From assembly GCF_025061645.1 (NCBI RefSeq), contig NZ_JANYMP010000002.1:248001-312000 (forward strand): 64,000 nt of DNA, written 5' to 3'. The position numbers and the translations under genes are program-made. Position 1 is the stretch's first letter. Each line of letters opens with the position of its first letter. The notes beneath the pieces were generated by a model. The model made no database searches. It was not told where the DNA came from and saw only the letters and a list, made by a program, of their open reading frames with translations. This DNA is from Umezawaea endophytica (GTDB lineage Bacteria > Actinomycetota > Actinomycetes > Mycobacteriales > Pseudonocardiaceae). Of this stretch, positions 11,383-21,410 are shown in pieces.

Positions 11383-11427
11383 GCGCCCAGCCTAGAGGGG
11401 TGGATACGCCCATCCGGTCCTGGTGCA

Positions 11428-11443
11428 ACAGGTCTGGACCTAT
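11428..11443. promoter_or_regulatory. dre-like (DasR) box 1 upstream of LPMO
   Basis: ACAGGTCTGGACCTAT matches 12 of 16 positions of the DasR-responsive element ACTGGTCTAGACCACT, including the GGTCT-GACC core. It lies about 75 bp before the LPMO start. DasR is a GntR repressor relieved by glucosamine phosphates. The binding assignment is inference. Confidence 0.5.
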
Positions 11444-11449
11444 GAGACT

Positions 11450-11465
11450 AAAGGTCTAGTCCTCT
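11450..11465. promoter_or_regulatory. dre-like (DasR) box 2 upstream of LPMO
   Basis: AAAGGTCTAGTCCTCT keeps the GGTCTAG core and CC of the dre consensus (11 of 16). Its centre is 22 bp from that of box 1, two helical turns, placing both boxes on the same DNA face. Confidence 0.42.
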
Positions 11466-11509
11466 GCTGGGTGCCAGGCCGCCAACCGAACACTGTAGGG
11501 AGTGACCAC

Positions 11510-12142
11510 GTGAAAGCTCGCAAACTCGGTCTGGTGGCCGTCCTCGCGTCCATCGCCGTCGCGCTGCCGATGCTCATGACCGGTGTGGCGCAGGGCCACG
11601 GCTCCGCGCAGGGACCGTTCAGCCGCACGTACAACTGCCGGTGGAACGAGAACCCCGAAGCCCCGACGTCCGGCGGCTGCAAGGCCGCCATCGCCGCGGG
11701 CGGCACGCAGGCCATGTACGACTGGCACGAGGTGAACATCGCCAACGCGGCGGGCAACAGCCGGTCGATCATCCCGGACGGCAAGCTGTGCAGCGCGGGC
11801 CGCGACAAGTACAAGGGCCTCGACCTGCCGCGCACCGACTGGGCGGCCACGAAGCTGACCAGCGGCGCGAACATCACCTTCCAGCTCAAGGCCACCGCCC
11901 CGCACCGCGGCACGTTCGAGCTGTTCAGCACCAAGACCGGCTGGAACCCCTCGGCCCCGCTCAAGTGGAGCGACCTCGACTCGTCGTTCGCGAAGGTCAC
12001 CGAGCCGACGATCGCCAACGGCGCGTACCAGATCAACGTGAAGCTCCCGTCCGGCAAGACCGGCCGCCACCTGATCTACGTGATCTGGCAGCGCTCGGAC
12101 AGCCCGGAGGCCTTCTACTCCTGCTCGGACGTCATCTACTAG
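11510..12142 (+). CDS. Secreted AA10 lytic polysaccharide monooxygenase
   Basis: The 210-residue precursor carries an export signal (basic start, hydrophobic 7-24) ending GVAQG, so the mature enzyme begins at His30. That His forms the copper histidine brace with His132 of APHRGTFELF; Phe202 in EAFYSCSDV is at the usual axial position. Single-domain AA10, about 180 mature residues, without a carbohydrate-binding module. Cys pairs (C43/C57 and others) fit the family disulphides. It oxidatively cleaves chitin or cellulose; the substrate cannot be fixed here, but the dre-like boxes upstream favour chitin. GTG 11510 follows GGGAG. A strong hairpin follows the stop. Confidence 0.92.
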   Translation: MKARKLGLVAVLASIAVALPMLMTGVAQGHGSAQGPFSRTYNCRWNENPEAPTSGGCKAAIAAGGTQAMYDWHEVNIANAAGNSRSIIPDGKLCSAGRDKYKGLDLPRTDWAATKLTSGANITFQLKATAPHRGTFELFSTKTGWNPSAPLKWSDLDSSFAKVTEPTIANGAYQINVKLPSGKTGRHLIYVIWQRSDSPEAFYSCSDVIY

Positions 12143-12174: not shown

Positions 12175-12207
12175 CTGAGGGGGAGCCCACGTCGGGCTCC
12201 CCCTCAG
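12175..12207. terminator. Perfect 14-bp hairpin, bidirectional terminator
   Basis: CTGAGGGGGAGCCC (12175-12188) and its exact complement (12194-12207) enclose a 5-nt loop. The stem includes the TGA stop of the convergent regulator gene on the minus strand and ends the LPMO transcript on the plus strand. Confidence 0.75.
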
Positions 12208-13670
12208 CCGTCCGCGGCCAGCGCGCGGCGCAACTGCCCGGCCACGAGTTCGCACCTCGTGTCGTCGCGCGGCAGCTCCCGCGCGAGCAGGCGCAGCGCC
12301 TCCACGTCGTCGCGCCCGCCGTCGGTGCGGGTGAACTCCCACAGGCTCTCCACGTCCCCCAGCGTGAGCACGGCCCGGCGGACGCCCGCCAGCAGGTCCT
12401 CCCGCTCCTCGCGCACCACCGGCGCCTCCGAGCGCGGCAGCAGCGCTCCCCGGTAGCCCACCGCGGCGGCGGCGACGTCCCCGCGCCGCACCGCTTCCCG
12501 CACCGCGACGAAGTCGCCCTGCACGTCCGCCCGCAGCCGGTAGGGCTTGGTCAGCAGCGTGCCCGTGCCGACCTGCGCGCGCAGCCGGTGCAGCTCGGCC
12601 CGCACGGTCGCCGGGTTCCCCCGGTCGCCGTACAGCTTGAGCGCGAGCTGCTCCGCGGTCAGCCCCCGCGGGTGCAGCACCAGCGCGGTCAGCAGCTCCG
12701 CGTGCCGGGACGTCAGCGGCAGCTCGCGGCCGTTCAGCACGGCGCGGGGGTGCTCGACGCCCAGGAACGTCAACGACAGCAACGGTTGCCGCTGCTGTCC
12801 GGTCGGCCTCGCCACCCGCAGCAGGTAACCCTCGGCCAGCGGTTCCAGCACGCCTTCGCGGCCGTCGCCGAGCGGCACCCGGTCCGAGGTGAGGTCCACC
12901 CGCCGGGGCAGCAGACCGTGCGGTTCCGCGACGAGCACCCGGCCGGTGGGGCTGAGCAGCGCGCCCGGCTCGCCGCGCAACCCGATGAGGTGCCTCATGT
13001 TCCGCGACCGCAGCAGTTCGTCGCTCGCGGCCAGCCGCAGCTTCAGCTCGCTCTCCGCCAGCCGAGCCGCGGCCGACACCAGCGCGCCCATGGTGGGGTG
13101 CATGATGCTCAGCGGTCCGCTGATGTCCACCGCGCCGATCGTGAGCCCGGTGTCCGGGTCGTGCACGGGGCTCGCCGCGCACGTCCACCCGTGGTAGGTC
13201 CGGACCAGGTGCTCGGCGGAGTGCACGACCGCCGACGTGTCGACCGCGAGCGCGATGCCCATCGCGTTGGTGCCGATGGCCTCCTCGGTCCACCGCGCGC
13301 CCTCGGTCAGGCCGACGTCCTCGGCGCTGCGGCGCACCTCCCGCTCGCCCTCGGTCCACAGGATGTGACCGCCCGCGTCTGTGATGATCATGACATGCAT
13401 CGCGTCCTCCGCGATGCCCATCAACGTCTCCCGCAGCACCGGCAGCACGGTCGACAGCGGGTGCCCGGCCCAGCGCTCCGCGACCTCGTCCGGACCGAGG
13501 ACGATCGGCGCCTCGTGCCGGTACGGATCGACCTGGGCGGCCAGGGAACGGCTCCAGGACTCGGAGATCAGCGCGCGGGGCGCGACCCCGGTCGGTCCTC
13601 CGGCGAGGGTCTCCTCGTGCACCCGGCTCAACACGCGCGCCACCACGCGCTGGTCGTCACCCCGGTGCAT
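12204..13670 (-). CDS. GAF-domain regulator with C-terminal winged helix (module copy 1)
   Basis: The protein has 488 residues. The N-terminal half is the AcoR-type GAF sensor: ISESWSRSLAAQVDP, then [33 protein letters not shown] and [20 protein letters not shown]. There is no AAA+ sigma-54 activator domain. Instead the C-terminal half (about 300-400) reads [50 protein letters not shown], a winged-helix of the OmpR/BTAD type, followed by a helical tail. It is divergent from the aldehyde dehydrogenase at 13810, 139 bp away, with a direct-repeat operator between them. It is closely related to the copy at 15197-16654. Probable aldehyde/alcohol-responsive regulator (inference). Confidence 0.85.
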   Translation of the reverse strand: MHRGDDQRVVARVLSRVHEETLAGGPTGVAPRALISESWSRSLAAQVDPYRHEAPIVLGPDEVAERWAGHPLSTVLPVLRETLMGIAEDAMHVMIITDAGGHILWTEGEREVRRSAEDVGLTEGARWTEEAIGTNAMGIALAVDTSAVVHSAEHLVRTYHGWTCAASPVHDPDTGLTIGAVDISGPLSIMHPTMGALVSAAARLAESELKLRLAASDELLRSRNMRHLIGLRGEPGALLSPTGRVLVAEPHGLLPRRVDLTSDRVPLGDGREGVLEPLAEGYLLRVARPTGQQRQPLLSLTFLGVEHPRAVLNGRELPLTSRHAELLTALVLHPRGLTAEQLALKLYGDRGNPATVRAELHRLRAQVGTGTLLTKPYRLRADVQGDFVAVREAVRRGDVAAAAVGYRGALLPRSEAPVVREEREDLLAGVRRAVLTLGDVESLWEFTRTDGGRDDVEALRLLARELPRDDTRCELVAGQLRRALAADG

Positions 13671-13736
13671 CGGTCCTCCCCCCGCTTCCGCCGTCAGGAT
13701 GACGCGCGCCGGGTCGTCGCGGCAAGCCGCCCGCGA

Positions 13737-13770
13737 TGCAACGCGACTGCAACGTCGATCTTCCTACCGT
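13737..13770 (+). promoter_or_regulatory. Direct-repeat operator and -10, module copy 1
   Basis: TGCAACG occurs at 13737-13743 and again at 13748-13754, an 11-bp period. Nine bp after TGCAACGT comes TACCGT (13765-13770), a likely -10 of the downstream gene. The same layout recurs upstream of copy 2. An 11-bp tandem period is typical of OmpR-type winged-helix dimers, fitting the divergent regulator. Confidence 0.55.
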
Positions 13771-13809
13771 CCTGGTTCCCTCGACGCACCCCAGGCTGGA
13801 GACCCCGAC

Positions 13810-15180
13810 ATGGCGAAGTACGCGGCACCGGGCCGATCGGGCGGCATCGTCGCGTTCCGCGACCAGTACGACCACTTCGTCGGTGGCGAGTACGTGCCGC
13901 CTTCACGGGGCTTCTACTTCGACAACCCGTCACCCGTCACGGGCGAGGTGTTCACCAGGGTGGCCAGGGGCACGGCCGAGGACGTCGACCACGCGCTCGA
14001 CGCCGCCCACGGCGCGGCACGGGCGTGGGGCCGCACGTCGGCCGCCGACCGCGCCACCGTGCTGTGCGAGATCGCCGACCGCGTCGAGGACAACCTGGAG
14101 GTCATCGCGGTCGCCGAGACCTGGGACAGCGGCAGACCCATCCGGGAGACGCTGTTCACGGACCTCCCCGCCGCGGCCGACCACTTCCGCTACTGCGCCG
14201 CGGTCGCCCGCGCCCAGGAGGGCGGCATCTCCAGGTCGGACGGCGACCTGGTCGCCCACCACTTCCACGAGCCGCTCGGCGTGGTCGGCATCGCCGTCCC
14301 GTGGACGTCGGCGCTGCTCACCACCGCCTGGCACCTCGCTCCCGCGCTCGCGGCGGGCAACACCGTGGTGCTGAAGCCGTCCGAGCACACCCCGGCGTCC
14401 ATCCACGTGCTCGTGGGCCTGATCAGCGACCTGCTCCCGCCGGGGGTCCTGAACGTCGTCACCGGTTTCGACGTCGAGGCCGCCGCGCCGATGTCCGCGA
14501 ACCGCCGCATCGCGAAGGCCGTGATCGTCCCCGAGCAGACCCGCTGGACCCCGACCGTCTACTTCGCCGACCTGACCCGGCAGCACGACGCCCGCTACAC
14601 CGGCGCCCTGGACGGGTTCGCCGGGTTCACCCTCAACCGGGCCTCGACCGCGATGGTCCAGAACAAGGCGTACGACCACTTCCTGCTGGACGCCACGGCC
14701 CGCACGGGAGCCGTCCGCCTCGGTGACCCGCTCGACCCCACCACCACGGCCGGCCCGCAGGTCAGCGCCGCCCACCTGGCCCGCACCCTGACCCGCGTCG
14801 ACCAGTGCGTCCGCGAGGGCGCCCGCCTCGTCATGGGCGGCGACCCCGTCGACCTGGGCGGCGGCTACTACGTGGCGCCGGCGATCTTCGAGATCGACCA
14901 CAAGACCCGCGTGGTCCACGAGGACTTCACCGGCCCGATCACCCTGGTCAGCCGCTTCGACGACGTGGACGACGCCGTGAAGGCCGTCAACGAGGTCCCG
15001 CCCAGCCCGTCCGCGGGCGTGTGGTCGCGGGACGCGGGCGTCGGCTACCGCACCGGCAGGGCCATCAGGGCGGGCCGGGTCTGGGTGAACAACCACCCGT
15101 CGCACGCGGGGTTCCTGGCCGAGCGCCGCGACCTGGTCGAGTCCTACCAGCACACGAAGAACATGGTGGTGGCGTACTGA
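13810..15180 (+). CDS. Aldehyde dehydrogenase-fold pseudoenzyme (module copy 1)
   Basis: The frame is intact and encodes 456 residues, clearly homologous to the 507-residue ExaC-type enzyme at 16793 from end to end (FVGGEYVPP near the start, [35 protein letters not shown]). The active site is gone. PWNFP is PWTSA at 164-168. About 21 residues spanning the GxTxxG nucleotide loop and the ELGG Glu are deleted around 238-250. The GEVCTC cysteine loop is replaced by RASTAMVQ near 277-284. The C-terminal GGYKDSG interface segment is also altered. The start is ATG 13810. Not a frameshifted pseudogene: no stops, and codon use matches neighbours. A structural or regulatory role is possible. Confidence 0.85.
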   Translation: MAKYAAPGRSGGIVAFRDQYDHFVGGEYVPPSRGFYFDNPSPVTGEVFTRVARGTAEDVDHALDAAHGAARAWGRTSAADRATVLCEIADRVEDNLEVIAVAETWDSGRPIRETLFTDLPAAADHFRYCAAVARAQEGGISRSDGDLVAHHFHEPLGVVGIAVPWTSALLTTAWHLAPALAAGNTVVLKPSEHTPASIHVLVGLISDLLPPGVLNVVTGFDVEAAAPMSANRRIAKAVIVPEQTRWTPTVYFADLTRQHDARYTGALDGFAGFTLNRASTAMVQNKAYDHFLLDATARTGAVRLGDPLDPTTTAGPQVSAAHLARTLTRVDQCVREGARLVMGGDPVDLGGGYYVAPAIFEIDHKTRVVHEDFTGPITLVSRFDDVDDAVKAVNEVPPSPSAGVWSRDAGVGYRTGRAIRAGRVWVNNHPSHAGFLAERRDLVESYQHTKNMVVAY

Positions 15181-15196
15181 TCGGACCCGGCGGGCC

Positions 15197-16654
15197 CTAG
15201 TCGTCCGCCAACGCCCGGCGGAGCTGCGCGACCACCAGTTCCCGCCGCAGGTCCTCGCGGGGCAGCGCACCGGCGAGGCGGTCGAGCGCCTCGGCGTCGT
15301 CGCGCCCGTCGTCGGTGCGGGTGAACTCCCACAGGCTCTCCGCGTCACCGCGGCTGATCACCGCCCGGCGCACCCCGGCCAGCAGGTCTTCCCGCTCCTC
15401 GCACACCACGGGCGCCTCGGACCTCGGGAGCAGCGCGCCCCGGTACCCGGCAACGGCGGCGGTGGCGTCCCCACCCCGTACGGCCTTCCGGACGGCGACG
15501 AAGTCCCCGCGCACGTCCGCCAGCAGCCGGTAGGGCCGGGTCAGCAGGACGCCATCACCCAACTGGGCCCGCAACCGGTGCATCTCCGCCCGGACGGTCG
15601 TCGGGTTCCCCCGGTCCCCGTACAGCCGCAGCGCCAGTTGCTCCGCCGTCAGCCCTGCGGGGTGCAGCGCCAGCGCGGTGAGGATCTCGGCGTGCCGCAG
15701 CGACAACGGCAGCCGCCGACCGTCCAACTCGGCCACGGGGTGGTCCGTGCCGAGGAAATCCAGTGACAGCAACGGTTTCCGGGCCGGGCCACCGGTACGG
15801 GGCACGCGCAGCAGGTACCCCTCGGCCAGCGCTTCGAGCACCCCGATCCGTCCGTCGGGCAGCACCAGTCGGTCGACGGCCACCGGGATCCGGTTCGGCA
15901 GCATCCCCAGCGGCTCGGTCGCCAGCACCCGCCCGGTGGGGCTCAGCAACGCGCCCGGCTCACCCCGCAACGCCGTGAGGTGACGCATGTTCCGCGCCCG
16001 CAACCGCTCGTCGCGGGTGGCGACCTGCACCTGCAACTGCCCTTCGGCGAGCCGGGCCGCGGCGGAGACCAGGGCCCCCATCGCCGGGTGCACGGTCCGC
16101 AGCGGGCCGCTGATGTCGACCGCCCCGAGCATCCGACCGGTGTCGGGGTCGCGGACGGGGCTCGCCGCGCACGTCCACCCGTGGTAGGCCCGGACCAGGT
16201 GCTCGGCCGAGTGCACGGTGACCGGCTTGCCCAGCGCCAGCGCGGTCCCCATCGCGTTGGTGCCGCTGGCGGACTCGCTCCACTGCGCGCCCTCGGTCAG
16301 GTGCACGCGGTCGGCGGCCCGGCGGATCCCCGACTCGCCCTCGCACCACAGGACGTTCCCGTCGGCGTCGGTGATGATCATGACGTGCATGGCCTCGTCC
16401 GCGATGCTCACCAGCGTCTCGCGCAGCAGCGGCAGCACGGACGCGAGCGGGTGGGCGTCCCGCAGGTCCACGACCTGCGACGCCTCGTACACGACCGGCG
16501 CCACGCGCTGCTCGGGGTCGACCCGCGCCGCCAGCGACCGGTGCCACGACTCGGAGATGACCGGGCGGGGTTCGCCGCCGACACCCGACAGCACCGAGTC
16601 GTACACCCGGCTGAGCGCGCGCGAGCGCCGCTGGGCGTCGTCGGCTGGGTGCAT
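15197..16654 (-). CDS. GAF-domain regulator with C-terminal winged helix (module copy 2)
   Basis: This 485-residue paralogue of the regulator at 12204-13670 has the same domain order. The AcoR-like GAF sensor carries [35 protein letters not shown] and [20 protein letters not shown]. The winged-helix core is [33 protein letters not shown], followed by [25 protein letters not shown]. It is divergent from the functional aldehyde dehydrogenase at 16793 with a 138-bp spacer, almost the same as in copy 1. Its stop lies 17 bp from the convergent stop of the pseudoenzyme. Likely an activator of the ALDH-DUF779 operon in response to an aldehyde or alcohol; the inducer is unknown. Confidence 0.85.
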
Positions 16655-16722
16655 GCGACCTCCAACACCCAGGATGACCCGCGATTACCCGTGACCGCAA
16701 CCTGCCGGTTCACCCGAACGGA

Positions 16723-16756
16723 TGAAACGAACATGCAACGTAGGGCTGCCTACCGT
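16723..16756 (+). promoter_or_regulatory. Direct-repeat operator and -10, module copy 2
   Basis: TGAAACG (16723-16729) and TGCAACG (16734-16740) form a direct repeat with 11-bp period. TGCAACGT is followed after exactly 9 bp by TACCGT (16751-16756), the likely -10. The spacing is identical to module copy 1 although the intervening bases differ. Confidence 0.57.
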
Positions 16757-16792
16757 GAGACCCACATCACGCAAAGAAGCGGGAGGCGACAC

Positions 16793-18316
16793 ATGGCGGA
16801 GTTCGCGGCACCTGGTCAGCAGGGCAGCGTCGTGGCGTACCAGGAGCGGTACGACCACTTCATCGGAGGCGAGTACGTGGCCCCGGCCAAGGGCGCCTAC
16901 TTCGAGAACCCCACCCCCGTCACGGGGCAGGTGTTCACCGAGATCGCCAGGGGCACGGCGGAGGACGTCGAGAAGGCGCTGGACGCGGCGCACGGCGCCT
17001 CACGCGCGTGGGGCCGGACCTCCCCGGCCGAGCGGGCGAACGTCCTCAACCGGATCGCCGACCGCATGGAGGAGAACCTCGAGGCGATAGCGGTCGCCGA
17101 GTGCTGGGAGAACGGCAAGCCCGTCCGCGAGACGCTGGCCGCCGACATCCCGCTCGCCATCGACCACTTCCGCTACTTCGCGGGCGTCATCCGCGCCCAG
17201 GAGGGCGGGATCTCGCAGATCGACCAGGACCTGGTGGCGTACCACTTCCAGGAGCCGCTCGGCGTCGTCGGCCAGATCATCCCGTGGAACTTCCCGATCC
17301 TGATGGCCACGTGGAAGCTCGCCCCCGCGCTGGCGGCGGGCAACTGCGTCGTGCTCAAACCCGCCGAGCAGACGCCCGCGTCGATCCACGTGCTGCTGAG
17401 CTTCATCGCGGACCTGCTGCCGCCGGGCGTCCTCAACGTGGTCAACGGGTTCGGCGTCGAAGCGGGCAAGCCGCTGGCGTCGAGCAGCCGGATCGCGAAG
17501 ATCGCGTTCACCGGTGAGACCACCACCGGCAGGCTGATCATGCAGTACGCCAGCGAGAACATCATCCCGGTGACGCTGGAGCTGGGCGGCAAGAGCCCGA
17601 ACATCTTCTTCGAGGACGTGGCCGCGACGCGCGACTCGTTCTACGACAAGGCCCTCGAGGGCTTCACGATGTTCGCGCTCAACCAGGGCGAGGTCTGCAC
17701 CTGCCCGTCGCGCGCGCTCATCCAGAGCTCCATCTACGACCAGTTCCTGGCCGACGCGACCGAGCGCACCAAGGCCGTGAAGCAGGGCAACCCGCTGGAC
17801 ACCGACACGATGATCGGCGCGCAGGCCAGCAACGACCAGCTCGAGAAGATCCTCTCCTACATCGACATCGGCAAGCAGGAGGGCGCCAAGCTGGTCACCG
17901 GCGGCGAGCGCGCCGACCTCGGCGGCGACCTGTCCGGCGGCTACTACGTCACGCCGACGATCTTCGAGGGCGACAACAAGATGCGGATCTTCCAGGAGGA
18001 GATCTTCGGCCCGGTCGTGTCGGTCGCCCGGTTCGACGACTACGACGACGCCGTGAAGACCGCCAACGACACGCTGTACGGGCTCGGGGCGGGCGTGTGG
18101 TCCCGCGACGGTGGGACGGCGTACCGCGCGGGCCGCGACATTCAGGCGGGCCGGGTGTGGGTGAACAACTACCACGCCTACCCGGCGCACGCGGCGTTCG
18201 GCGGCTACAAGGACTCCGGCATCGGCCGCGAGAACCACCGGATGATGCTGGACCACTACCAGCAGACGAAGAACCTGCTGGTCAGCTACTCGCAGAACGC
18301 GCAGGGCTTCTTCTGA
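16793..18316 (+). CDS. exaC: NAD-dependent aldehyde dehydrogenase, ExaC/AldB type
   Basis: A 507-residue enzyme oxidising acetaldehyde or related aldehydes to acids in the cytoplasm. All active-site elements are present: PWNFP with Asn166, nucleotide loop GETTTG (241-246), general base Glu263 in LELGGKS, and nucleophile Cys302 in GEVCTCPSR. The C-terminal [19 protein letters not shown] matches the acetaldehyde dehydrogenase subgroup. ATG 16793 follows GGGAGG (16781-16786). The DUF779 gene overlaps its stop (TGATG), a hallmark pairing of this subgroup. The divergent GAF regulator and the operator at 16723-16756 probably control it. Confidence 0.93.
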
Positions 18317-18681
18317 TGGACCGGGTAGCCCTCACGCAGGAGGCGGCGGAACTCATCCGCCGCCTCCGGGCGGACCACGGGCCGCTGATGTTCCACCAGT
18401 CCGGCGGGTGCTGCGACGGCAGCGCCCCGATGTGCTACCCGGCGGGCGAGTTCCGCACGGGCGGCTCGGATACCCACCTGGGCGACCTCGTCGTGGACGA
18501 CGAGCCCGTCCCGGTGTGGATGTCCGCCAAGCAGTTCGAGTACTGGCGCCACACCCACCTCACCATCGACGTCGTGCCGGGGCGAGGCAGCGGGTTCTCG
18601 TTGGAGGCTCCGCTAGGTGTGCGCTTCTTGATCCGCTCGCGCTTGCTCACCGACGAGGAATCGTTGGCGTTGAACGGTTAG
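18316..18681 (+). CDS. DUF779 protein, aldehyde dehydrogenase partner
   Basis: This 121-residue protein begins at the ATG that shares its A with the TGA of the aldehyde dehydrogenase, implying translational coupling. Family hallmarks are the cysteine-rich FHQSGGCCDGSAPMCYP (residues 26-42) and later VWMSAKQFEYWRHTHLTIDVVPGRGSGFSLE. DUF779 genes almost always follow acetaldehyde-type dehydrogenases. The Cys cluster suggests metal or redox chemistry, but the biochemical function has not been settled to my knowledge. Confidence 0.88.
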   Translation: MDRVALTQEAAELIRRLRADHGPLMFHQSGGCCDGSAPMCYPAGEFRTGGSDTHLGDLVVDDEPVPVWMSAKQFEYWRHTHLTIDVVPGRGSGFSLEAPLGVRFLIRSRLLTDEESLALNG

Positions 18682-19814: not shown

Positions 19815-21410
19815 TCAATTCCCCCAGGGCACCTGGGGCGAGGCGTAGTAGTTGACCCCCGCAGCCTGCCAACGGGGTCCCTGGGCGGCGAGCCGCTTGG
19901 AGAAGTCCGTCCAGTCGTGCGTCGACTGCGGCGACCACCCGAGTTCGGCGATGGCGGGCAGCCTCGGGAACGCCATCTGCTCGACGTCGGACGACTCGTC
20001 GAGGGTTTCCGTCCACAGCGGAGCCTCGACGCCGCGGACGGCCGACTCCGGCACGCCCTTCAGGTAGGCGCCGGGGTTCCAGTCGTAGGCGTCCTGGACG
20101 TCGGTGTAGCCCGCCCAGTCCAGGCCCAGCTCGGTGTTCTCGTCGTACTTCATGTCCAGGTACGCCTTGGACGCGGGCGAGAGCAGGACCTTGTTGCCCC
20201 GCGCGGCCGCGGCGGCCACGTCGGCGTCCTCGGTGTCGGTGCCCCAGTACTGGGCGACGGCGGAGGTGGCCGGGTTCGTCTTCACGAACTCGTGCCAGCC
20301 CAGCGCCAGCTTGCCGTGCTTCTTCACCAGCGGCAGCACCTTGTCCATGAAGGTCTTGAAGTCCGGCTCGGTCGTGGAGTGGGCCTCGTCGCCGCCGATG
20401 TGCAGGAACGGGCCGGGCGTCAACGCGGCCAGCTCGCGCAGCACGTCGTCGACGAACCGGTAGGTGATCGGCTTGTCGATGCACAGCGAGCTGAACCCGA
20501 CCTCGGTGCCGTCGTAGAGCGGCGGCGCGACGCCGTCGCAGTTCAGCTCGGCGTACGACGCGAGGGCCGCGTTGGTGTGGCCCGGCATGTCGATCTCCGG
20601 GATCACCGTGATACCACGGGATCCGGCGTACGTCACCAGGGACTTGTACTGCTCCTGGGTGTAGTAGCCGCCCTTGCCGCCACCGACCTCGATGCTGCCG
20701 CCGTACGTCGCGAGCCTCGGCCAGCTCTTGATCTCGATGCGCCAGCCCTGGTCGTCCGCGAGGTGCAGGTGCAGGTAGTTGACCTTGTACGCGGCGATCT
20801 GGTCGACGTACCGCTTCACCTCGTCGACGGAGAAGAAGTGCCTCGCCACGTCGAGCATCGCGCCGCGGTGGCCGAAGCGCGGGTAGTCGAGGACGCTGCC
20901 GCCGGGCACGGTCCACGGCCCGGACTGCTTCGTCTTCGCCTCGATCTTCGCGGGCAGTAGCTGCCGCAGCGTCTGGACGCCCGCGAACAGGCCAGCCGCG
21001 GCCCGTGCGCGGATCACGACGCCCCACGGCGTCACGTCGAGCTGGTAGCCCTCCTTGCCGACCTTCGGGTCGGCGCCGACGAGCAGCAGCGTCACGCCCC
21101 TCGGGGTCACGCCGGAGGACACCGGCAGGCGGTAGCCGGTCGCGGGGCGCAGCAGTTCGGCCGCGTACTCGCCGACCTTCCGCGCGTCCGGCGAACCGGG
21201 CTGGGTCTGGATCCTCGCGTTCGCGGTCAGCGAGTAGGACACCCCTGGACGGGGTGTGACCTTGACGGGCGCGGGCACGATCTGGCGCAACGACGTCTCC
21301 GGGGTTGCTTGAGCTGGGCTCGCCGCGCCGACCGCGACCGCTGTGGTTCCGGCGAGCAGCAGTGCCAGAGCGGCACCGCGCACCCGCCGTGCTTTTCCAC
21401 CGATCCCCAC
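19815..21410 (-). CDS. Secreted GH20 beta-N-acetylhexosaminidase
   Basis: A 531-residue precursor with signal peptide (hydrophobic 12-32, cleavage near AQA-TPET). A GH20b domain is followed by the catalytic barrel: HRGAMLDVARHFFS, LHLHLADDQGWRIEIKSWP, PEIDMPGHTNAA and the catalytic pair Asp341-Glu342 in HIGGDEAH. The C-terminal WTETLDESSDVEQMAFPRLPAIAELGW is typical. It removes terminal GlcNAc from chitooligosaccharides by substrate-assisted catalysis, complementing the LPMO at 11.5 kb. A dre-like box lies 77 bp upstream of the start, so derepression by glucosamine phosphates through DasR is likely (inference). Confidence 0.93.
   Translation of the reverse strand: MGIGGKARRVRGAALALLLAGTTAVAVGAASPAQATPETSLRQIVPAPVKVTPRPGVSYSLTANARIQTQPGSPDARKVGEYAAELLRPATGYRLPVSSGVTPRGVTLLLVGADPKVGKEGYQLDVTPWGVVIRARAAAGLFAGVQTLRQLLPAKIEAKTKQSGPWTVPGGSVLDYPRFGHRGAMLDVARHFFSVDEVKRYVDQIAAYKVNYLHLHLADDQGWRIEIKSWPRLATYGGSIEVGGGKGGYYTQEQYKSLVTYAGSRGITVIPEIDMPGHTNAALASYAELNCDGVAPPLYDGTEVGFSSLCIDKPITYRFVDDVLRELAALTPGPFLHIGGDEAHSTTEPDFKTFMDKVLPLVKKHGKLALGWHEFVKTNPATSAVAQYWGTDTEDADVAAAAARGNKVLLSPASKAYLDMKYDENTELGLDWAGYTDVQDAYDWNPGAYLKGVPESAVRGVEAPLWTETLDESSDVEQMAFPRLPAIAELGWSPQSTHDWTDFSKRLAAQGPRWQAAGVNYYASPQVPWGN

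Follow-up and report, generated by a model that had tools for sequence, protein, structure and literature searches.

A locus of four genes encoding two transcriptional regulators and two aldehyde dehydrogenase (ALDH) family proteins was examined in a 64,000-nucleotide stretch of the 11.02-Mb genome of Umezawaea endophytica (contig NZ_JANYMP010000002.1, positions 248,001 to 312,000), referred to here as the window. The genes form two divergent regulator/ALDH modules arranged in tandem at window positions 12204-18316 (Table 1). The spacers between the paired genes measure 139 bp in the copy 1 module and 138 bp in the copy 2 module, in agreement with the arrangement given in an initial annotation of the sequence. 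The two ALDH proteins are 54% identical to each other and the two regulators, reg1 and reg2, 69%. The gene that follows copy 1 is reg2, with no DUF779 gene at that position in the layout of open reading frames (ORFs).

Table 1. Features of the tandem regulator/ALDH locus in the window.
Feature	Position	Strand	Description
reg1, regulator of pseudoenzyme module	12204-13670	-	488 aa; ORF
Predicted operator upstream of pseudoenzyme	13737-13754	+	TGCAACG-CGAC-TGCAACG; two direct repeats, 11 bp apart
Copy 1, ExaC-derived ALDH pseudoenzyme	13810-15180	+	456 aa; without catalytic Asn, Glu, Cys and coenzyme-site segments
reg2, regulator of live module	15197-16654	-	485 aa; ORF
Predicted operator of live module	16723-16740	+	TGAAACG-AACA-TGCAACG; 1 mismatch
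Copy 2, intact ExaC (NAD-dependent acetaldehyde dehydrogenase)	16793-18316	+	507 aa; NF050026, catalytic residues
DUF779 protein overlapping live exaC end	18316-18681	+	PF05610, 158 bits

Copy 2 carries Asn166, Glu263 and Cys302, as first annotated, and scored 961.8 bits with the ExaC equivalog model NF050026 (cut-off 900). Copy 1 scored 485.4 bits with this model, placing it outside the ExaC equivalog, and 287.4 bits in two stretches with the ALDH superfamily model PF00171 (gathering score 23), placing it within the superfamily. The main lesions reported initially, a PWTSA motif, a deletion of about 21 residues and a loop without cysteine, were all recovered: PWTSA replaces PWNFP (Asn166 to Thr), live positions 245-265 are missing (21 residues, with Glu263 and the final Gly of the GxTxxG loop), and so are positions 300-305, Cys302 among them. 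Further losses that had gone unreported comprise live positions 466-468 and 470-478, which amount to 12 residues of the GGYKxSGxGRE region, together with positions 378-381 and the last eight residues (500-507), and Glu403 and Phe405 are substituted by Asp and Thr. Judged by the catalytic Cys, Glu and Asn, copy 1 is not an active ALDH. Its frame is nevertheless open and its codon use normal, as had been claimed, with a third-position GC content of 97.4% compared to 97.8% in the live copy.

The AlphaFold2 model of copy 1 has the ALDH fold, with a predicted local distance difference test (pLDDT) score of 78.5 and a predicted template modelling (pTM) score of 0.76. The best fold matches in the PDB were 9fm9 and the ExaC structure 9koi, and 1zum, the inactive apo form of ALDH2*2, also scored high. 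ExaC (9koi; relative 9fm9) resembles copy 1 in both fold and sequence, but retains the catalytic Asn, Glu and Cys, together with an alpha-G segment and a C-terminal active-site loop, all of which copy 1 has lost. Excerpts of PMC8160307 describe a loss of electron density for the alpha-G helix and the Arg475 loop in ALDH2*2, an inactive human E487K variant, and these two appear, by motif and unaligned, to be the two main segments deleted from copy 1. ALDH2*2 is however a point-mutant allele rather than a fixed paralogue, and in copy 1 the segments are absent.

An ortholog of copy 1, 77% identical, was found in Umezawaea tangerina. Copy 1 is thus present in two of the three Umezawaea genomes, both of which have a live ExaC, and the view of it as an oddity of one strain was dismissed. 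The ortholog shows no frame break and shares the deletions of copy 1, including those of the catalytic site, except that positions 378-381 are retained; the initial description of a preserved dead paralogue was therefore borne out. Domain and oligomerisation segments were assigned by analogy with ALDH2 boundaries. By these boundaries the coenzyme domain (before residue 237) is 84-85% identical between the two orthologs, and the oligomerisation hairpin and the C-terminal strand are identical at 17/19 and 12/14 residues, compared to just 3/11 and 5/10 in the stretches beside the deleted segments. This pattern, the coexistence of both copies in two of the three species, and the strands that the copy 1 model retains at the oligomerisation segments would be consistent with the pseudoenzyme joining ExaC tetramers as an inactive subunit that alters their activity or stability. 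Such a role is unlikely: the C-terminal strand matches that of the live copy at just 7-8 of 14 residues, and the deleted alpha-G helix sits at the dimer interface of ALDH2 (excerpts of PMC8160307), so that normal dimers may not form.

The copy 1 genes of the two Umezawaea species differ at 14.9, 13.4 and 30.0% of first, second and third codon positions. The ratio of nonsynonymous to synonymous substitution rates (dN/dS), proposed in the initial annotation as a check, was below 1 for this pair, at 0.315 by the Nei-Gojobori method (NG86) and 0.09 as the Muse-Gaut (MG94) omega (likelihood ratio test p ~1e-43); the live ExaC pair gave 0.154 and 0.061. The gap in scale between the two methods probably arises from the approximately 97% GC at third positions, and weight was therefore placed on the contrast with 600 neutral simulations of the Umezawaea copy 1 pair, run at three base compositions. 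The lowest simulated NG86 value was 0.72, a minimum from which any simulation with NG86 not computable would drop out. The highest simulated third-position excess was 1.39 (observed 2.12), the highest third-position GC was 0.955 (observed 0.975), and 16 of the 600 simulations remained free of stop codons. Because the observed values lie outside the neutral simulations, copy 1 is under purifying selection, weaker than that on live ExaC, and a simple neutral pseudogene was dismissed for this pair.

With its predicted fold kept, its catalytic residues gone and its maintenance by selection, copy 1 has the features of an ALDH pseudoenzyme, and its sequence makes a well supported case for a true pseudoenzyme of the ExaC type. 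We infer that the protein is made and does not bind NAD. A comparable case is human ALDH16A1, likewise an ALDH family member without catalytic residues, for which excerpts of PMC10650815 and PMC8160307 give a proposed action through protein binding. The ALDH16 proteins have a large additional C-terminal non-functional cofactor domain (excerpts of PMC8160307), and differ in this from copy 1, which is a single ALDH fold of 456 aa without the extra domain.

A search of 390 genomes of the family identified the exact TGCAACG-N4-TGCAACG repeat pair in 139. In the genus g8 (Saccharothrix/Actinosynnema, as judged by sequence comparison with named loci) it was present in 22 of 25 genomes, each of which also has a regulator gene and, immediately downstream, a gene of the ExaC family. 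The ExaC-family gene is intact in 10 and degenerate in 12 (G058, G060, G061, G063, G067, G069, G071, G072, G073, G075, G077 and G080). In G062, G074 and G078 no exact operator was found, and no ExaC at E 1e-120, a threshold that a very degraded copy could escape. The intact g8 proteins are 507 aa long, and of the 20 live rows aligned at least 19 keep the catalytic positions. No intact ExaC was found in the 12 species, of the 25, that have a degenerate gene. These species keep the regulator, the operator and the degenerate gene, so the titrating or hetero-oligomerising role with ExaC suggested initially does not hold as a general one, and the same absence argues against inactive subunits in ExaC tetramers. 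Hetero-oligomerisation with ExaC is left as an alternative specific to Umezawaea. In one of the 22 g8 genomes, G064 (L113, near 4210), the gene next to an intact ExaC encodes a regulator of just 326 aa, apparently truncated, which is the opposite of what is usually seen.

The 15 degenerate copies recognised in the family are a lower bound, because residues were checked only in g1, g8, G385, G252 and named loci; G141, G194, G255, G286, G379, G380 and G322 were listed without residue inspection. L088 (27% identity) was left out everywhere and the partial L087 from the trees; the structure alignment omitted L071, L087 and L088, and the ALDH protein tree omitted six close Lentzea rows and L087. 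None of the 15 genes inspected showed a frame break, and third-position GC was 0.95-0.99 in the 11 of 12 degenerate g8 genes measured. In another genus, G385 carries a full-length copy with Cys302 changed to Ser and no deletion. Cys302 is lost in 14 of the 15 aligned proteins; G058 retains it, but has Trp165 changed to Arg, Asn166 to Asp and Phe405 to Pro. The deletions recur near positions 228-265, 299-307 and 463-481, with a loss of only four residues in G060, and no fixed replacement is shared between the Umezawaea proteins and the seven g8 proteins that are most degraded.

Of 350 positions conserved in the live proteins (identical in 19 or all 20 of the rows), 105 are retained by all 15 degenerate proteins. 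Glu192 is present in 15/15, as is Lys or Arg at position 189, and the part of the coenzyme domain that precedes residue 237 keeps most of its live-invariant positions (67-97% by group). Such conservation could reflect a retained or gained role in binding an aldehyde, nucleotide or other metabolite, or in catalysis that does not use NAD, but this is improbable given the loss of the GxTxxG loop, Gly225, Phe405 and the catalytic residues in Umezawaea and the most degraded g8 forms. A DUF779 gene adjoins 4 of the 10 intact g8 exaC genes (G059, G068, G070 and G082) and none of 11 degenerate ones (all but G058), a difference on which loss of DUF779 may precede or accompany the loss of catalysis.

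Constraint was also measured in g8. Six pairs of degenerate genes, all inside one group of nine species and partly overlapping, gave MG94 omega values of 0.09-0.22 and NG86 values of 0.20-0.59, and six live pairs gave 0.04-0.07 and 0.09-0.21; an omega of 1 was rejected in every case. The regulators of species with only a degenerate gene had MG94 values of 0.10-0.15 (5 pairs), compared to 0.06-0.14 for regulators beside an intact ExaC (5 pairs), a broadly similar level of constraint.

The initial annotation labelled both regulators as GAF/winged-helix proteins. This stood for the GAF domain of reg2, which passes the Pfam threshold (37.5 bits), but not for reg1, which does not; the winged-helix domain Trans_reg_C scored 18-19 bits in both regulators (18.9 in reg1), under its 26.2 cut-off, and there was no Pfam match to BTAD. 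The DhaR equivalog model NF008485 matched the N-terminal part only, with 57.1 bits for reg1 and 58.6 bits for reg2, and at a cut-off of 551 neither is a DhaR equivalog. The reg2 model (pLDDT 73.7, pTM 0.46) has ten-residue means of 81-97 from residue 301 on. In a fold search it matched AfsR (8hvr, 8k60) with an E value of 3e-6, with Mycobacterium tuberculosis EmbR likewise among the matches, and more weakly the DhaR(N)-DhaL (4lrz) and DhaR(N)-DhaK (4lrx) complexes. With the reg1 fold taken from the reg2 model, both regulators look like a DhaR-like N-terminal part joined to a SARP-like C-terminal half.

DhaR is controlled by enzyme subunits, and its output half is of the AAA+ type. In the model the N-terminal half of the regulator weakly resembles the Escherichia coli DhaR(N) that was solved with DhaL and DhaK, whereas the output half would be SARP-like and the partner would be an ALDH rather than a kinase subunit. 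The predicted fold is like AfsR and the SARPs in its winged helix and helical C-terminal half, and differs from them in the DhaR-like N-terminal sensor, the sub-threshold Trans_reg_C score and the lack of a BTAD match.

The predicted repeat pair could be aligned in all 22 regulator/ALDH spacers examined, exactly in 16 and with one or two mismatches in 6. Direct repeats 11 bp apart suit SARP-type binding. The exact operator of copy 1 is the sole exact match in the 11.0-Mb U. endophytica genome (G000), and in each Umezawaea genome such matches are confined to the locus (one in G000, one in G001 and two in U. tangerina). Elsewhere in the family, G067 has a second exact TGCAACG-N4-TGCAACG (L100, contig C1, 324777-324794) with no ExaC or regulator found adjoining it. 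An identical TGCAACGAGCATGCAACG site recurs in 24 genomes of genus g26 (G231-G254); that of G252 (Lentzea) lies on a different contig than the exaC locus, and the site is therefore probably an unrelated conserved one.

The origin of the degenerate copies was approached through the regulators and the ALDH genes separately. The regulator alignment (17 rows) and regulator trees (24 and 39 rows) contained part of the loci, without the fused G001 regulator described below. The regulator tree makes reg1 and reg2 sisters (support 100/98) and unites nine degenerate g8 loci in a clade (84/94) next to two live ones, with G060, G058 and G069 placed with other live g8 loci, so that at least five changes of state are needed. 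The regulator sequences thus support a duplication of the module in the Umezawaea stem. The tandem duplication proposed initially is supported by this tree, whereas it is not seen in the ALDH trees, of which the one built from protein rejects it.

In the ALDH protein tree the seven degenerate rows tested group together (90/94), and joining the Umezawaea pseudoenzymes to the live paralogues was rejected (approximately unbiased test, p_AU 0.014). The two trees built from ALDH DNA likewise put the pseudoenzymes beside g8 genes and not beside the live Umezawaea genes. All degenerate ExaCs might on this evidence descend from one old dead paralogue and not from repeated local inactivation. We consider this rather unlikely: reg1 and reg2 are sisters, and the degenerate g8 loci fall into two distinct g8 groups, next to live loci in each. 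A local origin was not rejected by DNA (p_AU 0.23 at third positions, 0.098 at positions 1+2), and a single degenerate clade gave p_AU 0.053 at third positions and 0.33 at positions 1+2. The deletion boundaries differ, and the ALDH tree is unsafe because long branches may attract each other.

In the third Umezawaea genome, G001, copy 1 is gone and the live exaC is kept. At the place where copy 1 would be, L050 5102-7030 is an open in-frame fused regulator of 643 aa with a repeated central part, in which the first 279 residues of reg2 are joined to reg1 from about residue 121. The junction falls within a 13-bp stretch identical in both regulator genes, as compared with those of U. tangerina. 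We read the fused gene as a deletion scar, from which the ancestor would have had both modules. Recent gene conversion between reg1 and reg2 was not seen (134 ortholog-supporting sites against 17 within-genome and 21 cross).

The explanation that we tentatively favour is that copy 1 is a pseudoenzyme kept by selection as a protein partner, either co-regulator or sensor subunit, of its divergently encoded regulator. It is favoured because a regulator and an operator, and not an ExaC partner, are common to the loci wherever catalytic residues are lost. Copy 1 has lost its C-terminal active-site loop, the coenzyme-site helix and both the catalytic Glu and the catalytic Cys, and has kept the rest of the fold. 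The N-terminal part of the regulator resembles DhaR, a transcription factor bound by enzyme subunits; we infer that copy 1 contacts the regulator. The TGCAACG-N4-TGCAACG repeats of the shared promoter would be the binding site of the AfsR/SARP-like C-terminal half. A wider version is more doubtful, namely that ExaC in these actinomycetes was already both an enzyme and a partner of the DhaR-SARP regulator, and that at least four lineages (by the regulator tree Umezawaea, two g8 groups and G385) shed catalysis and kept the regulatory job.

Several observations weigh against a regulator-partner role. The regulator model is weak overall, with 14 of the first 20 ten-residue blocks at a pLDDT below 60. 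The DhaR(N) match has an E value of 2e-5 but poor geometry (template modelling score 0.20, root mean square deviation 17 Å), and is for this reason only a lead, though the DhaR hidden Markov model matches both regulators. With one mismatch allowed, the operator has 7 sites in G000, compared to 5 for a reversed control pattern, and no longer stands out from the rest of the genome; the live gene's own predicted operator in this genome carries one mismatch. Among the regulator pairs, constraint is lowest for reg1 (MG94 0.16), and G001 has dispensed with copy 1 while retaining live exaC. Moreover the pseudoenzymes of Umezawaea and g8 may be independent, with no need of a common function.

The degenerate copies are also less constrained than the live ones, with some g8 pairs at an NG86 of 0.5-0.6, and slow decay may therefore apply at some loci, relaxed selection having taken the active site first with frame breaks to follow later. 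The approximately twofold higher NG86 of the copy 1 pair relative to the live pair, the still higher values of several g8 pairs, the loss of the gene from G001 and the position, on degenerate genes, of the two end branches marked as long would all fit such decay. As the explanation for the pseudoenzyme it is quite unlikely, however: neutral evolution was excluded by simulation for the Umezawaea pair, no frame break was seen in the 15 degenerate genes, and the nine g8 species that group by regulator retain the degenerate gene with their regulators constrained.

No description of the pseudoenzyme or of the regulator/ExaC pairing was found in a literature search covering titles and the starts of abstracts, which returned many unrelated matches and mostly did not extend to subscription journals. 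Human ALDH16A1 has no settled job according to excerpts of PMC10650815. The bacterial series offers living relatives at several stages of catalysis loss, together with a genomic partner that does not vary and a predicted operator of simple form, and makes the purpose of keeping a dead dehydrogenase directly testable in soil actinomycetes. If the wider version, with ExaC as both enzyme and regulator partner from the start, is true, it would represent a repeated route from metabolic enzyme to dedicated co-regulator, seen at stages from the full-length Cys302 to Ser copy of G385 up to the loss of three active-site segments. The series would also be a warning against annotating every exaC-like gene as an acetaldehyde dehydrogenase.

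Neither spacer gave a match in a sigma-70 promoter scan. The two regulators and two ALDH proteins had zero PADLOC matches, and an anti-phage role for the locus was dismissed. The locus is flanked by genes for an LPMO_10 lytic polysaccharide monooxygenase (window 11423-12142) and a GH20 hexosaminidase (19815-21410), perhaps marking a neighbourhood of chitin use.

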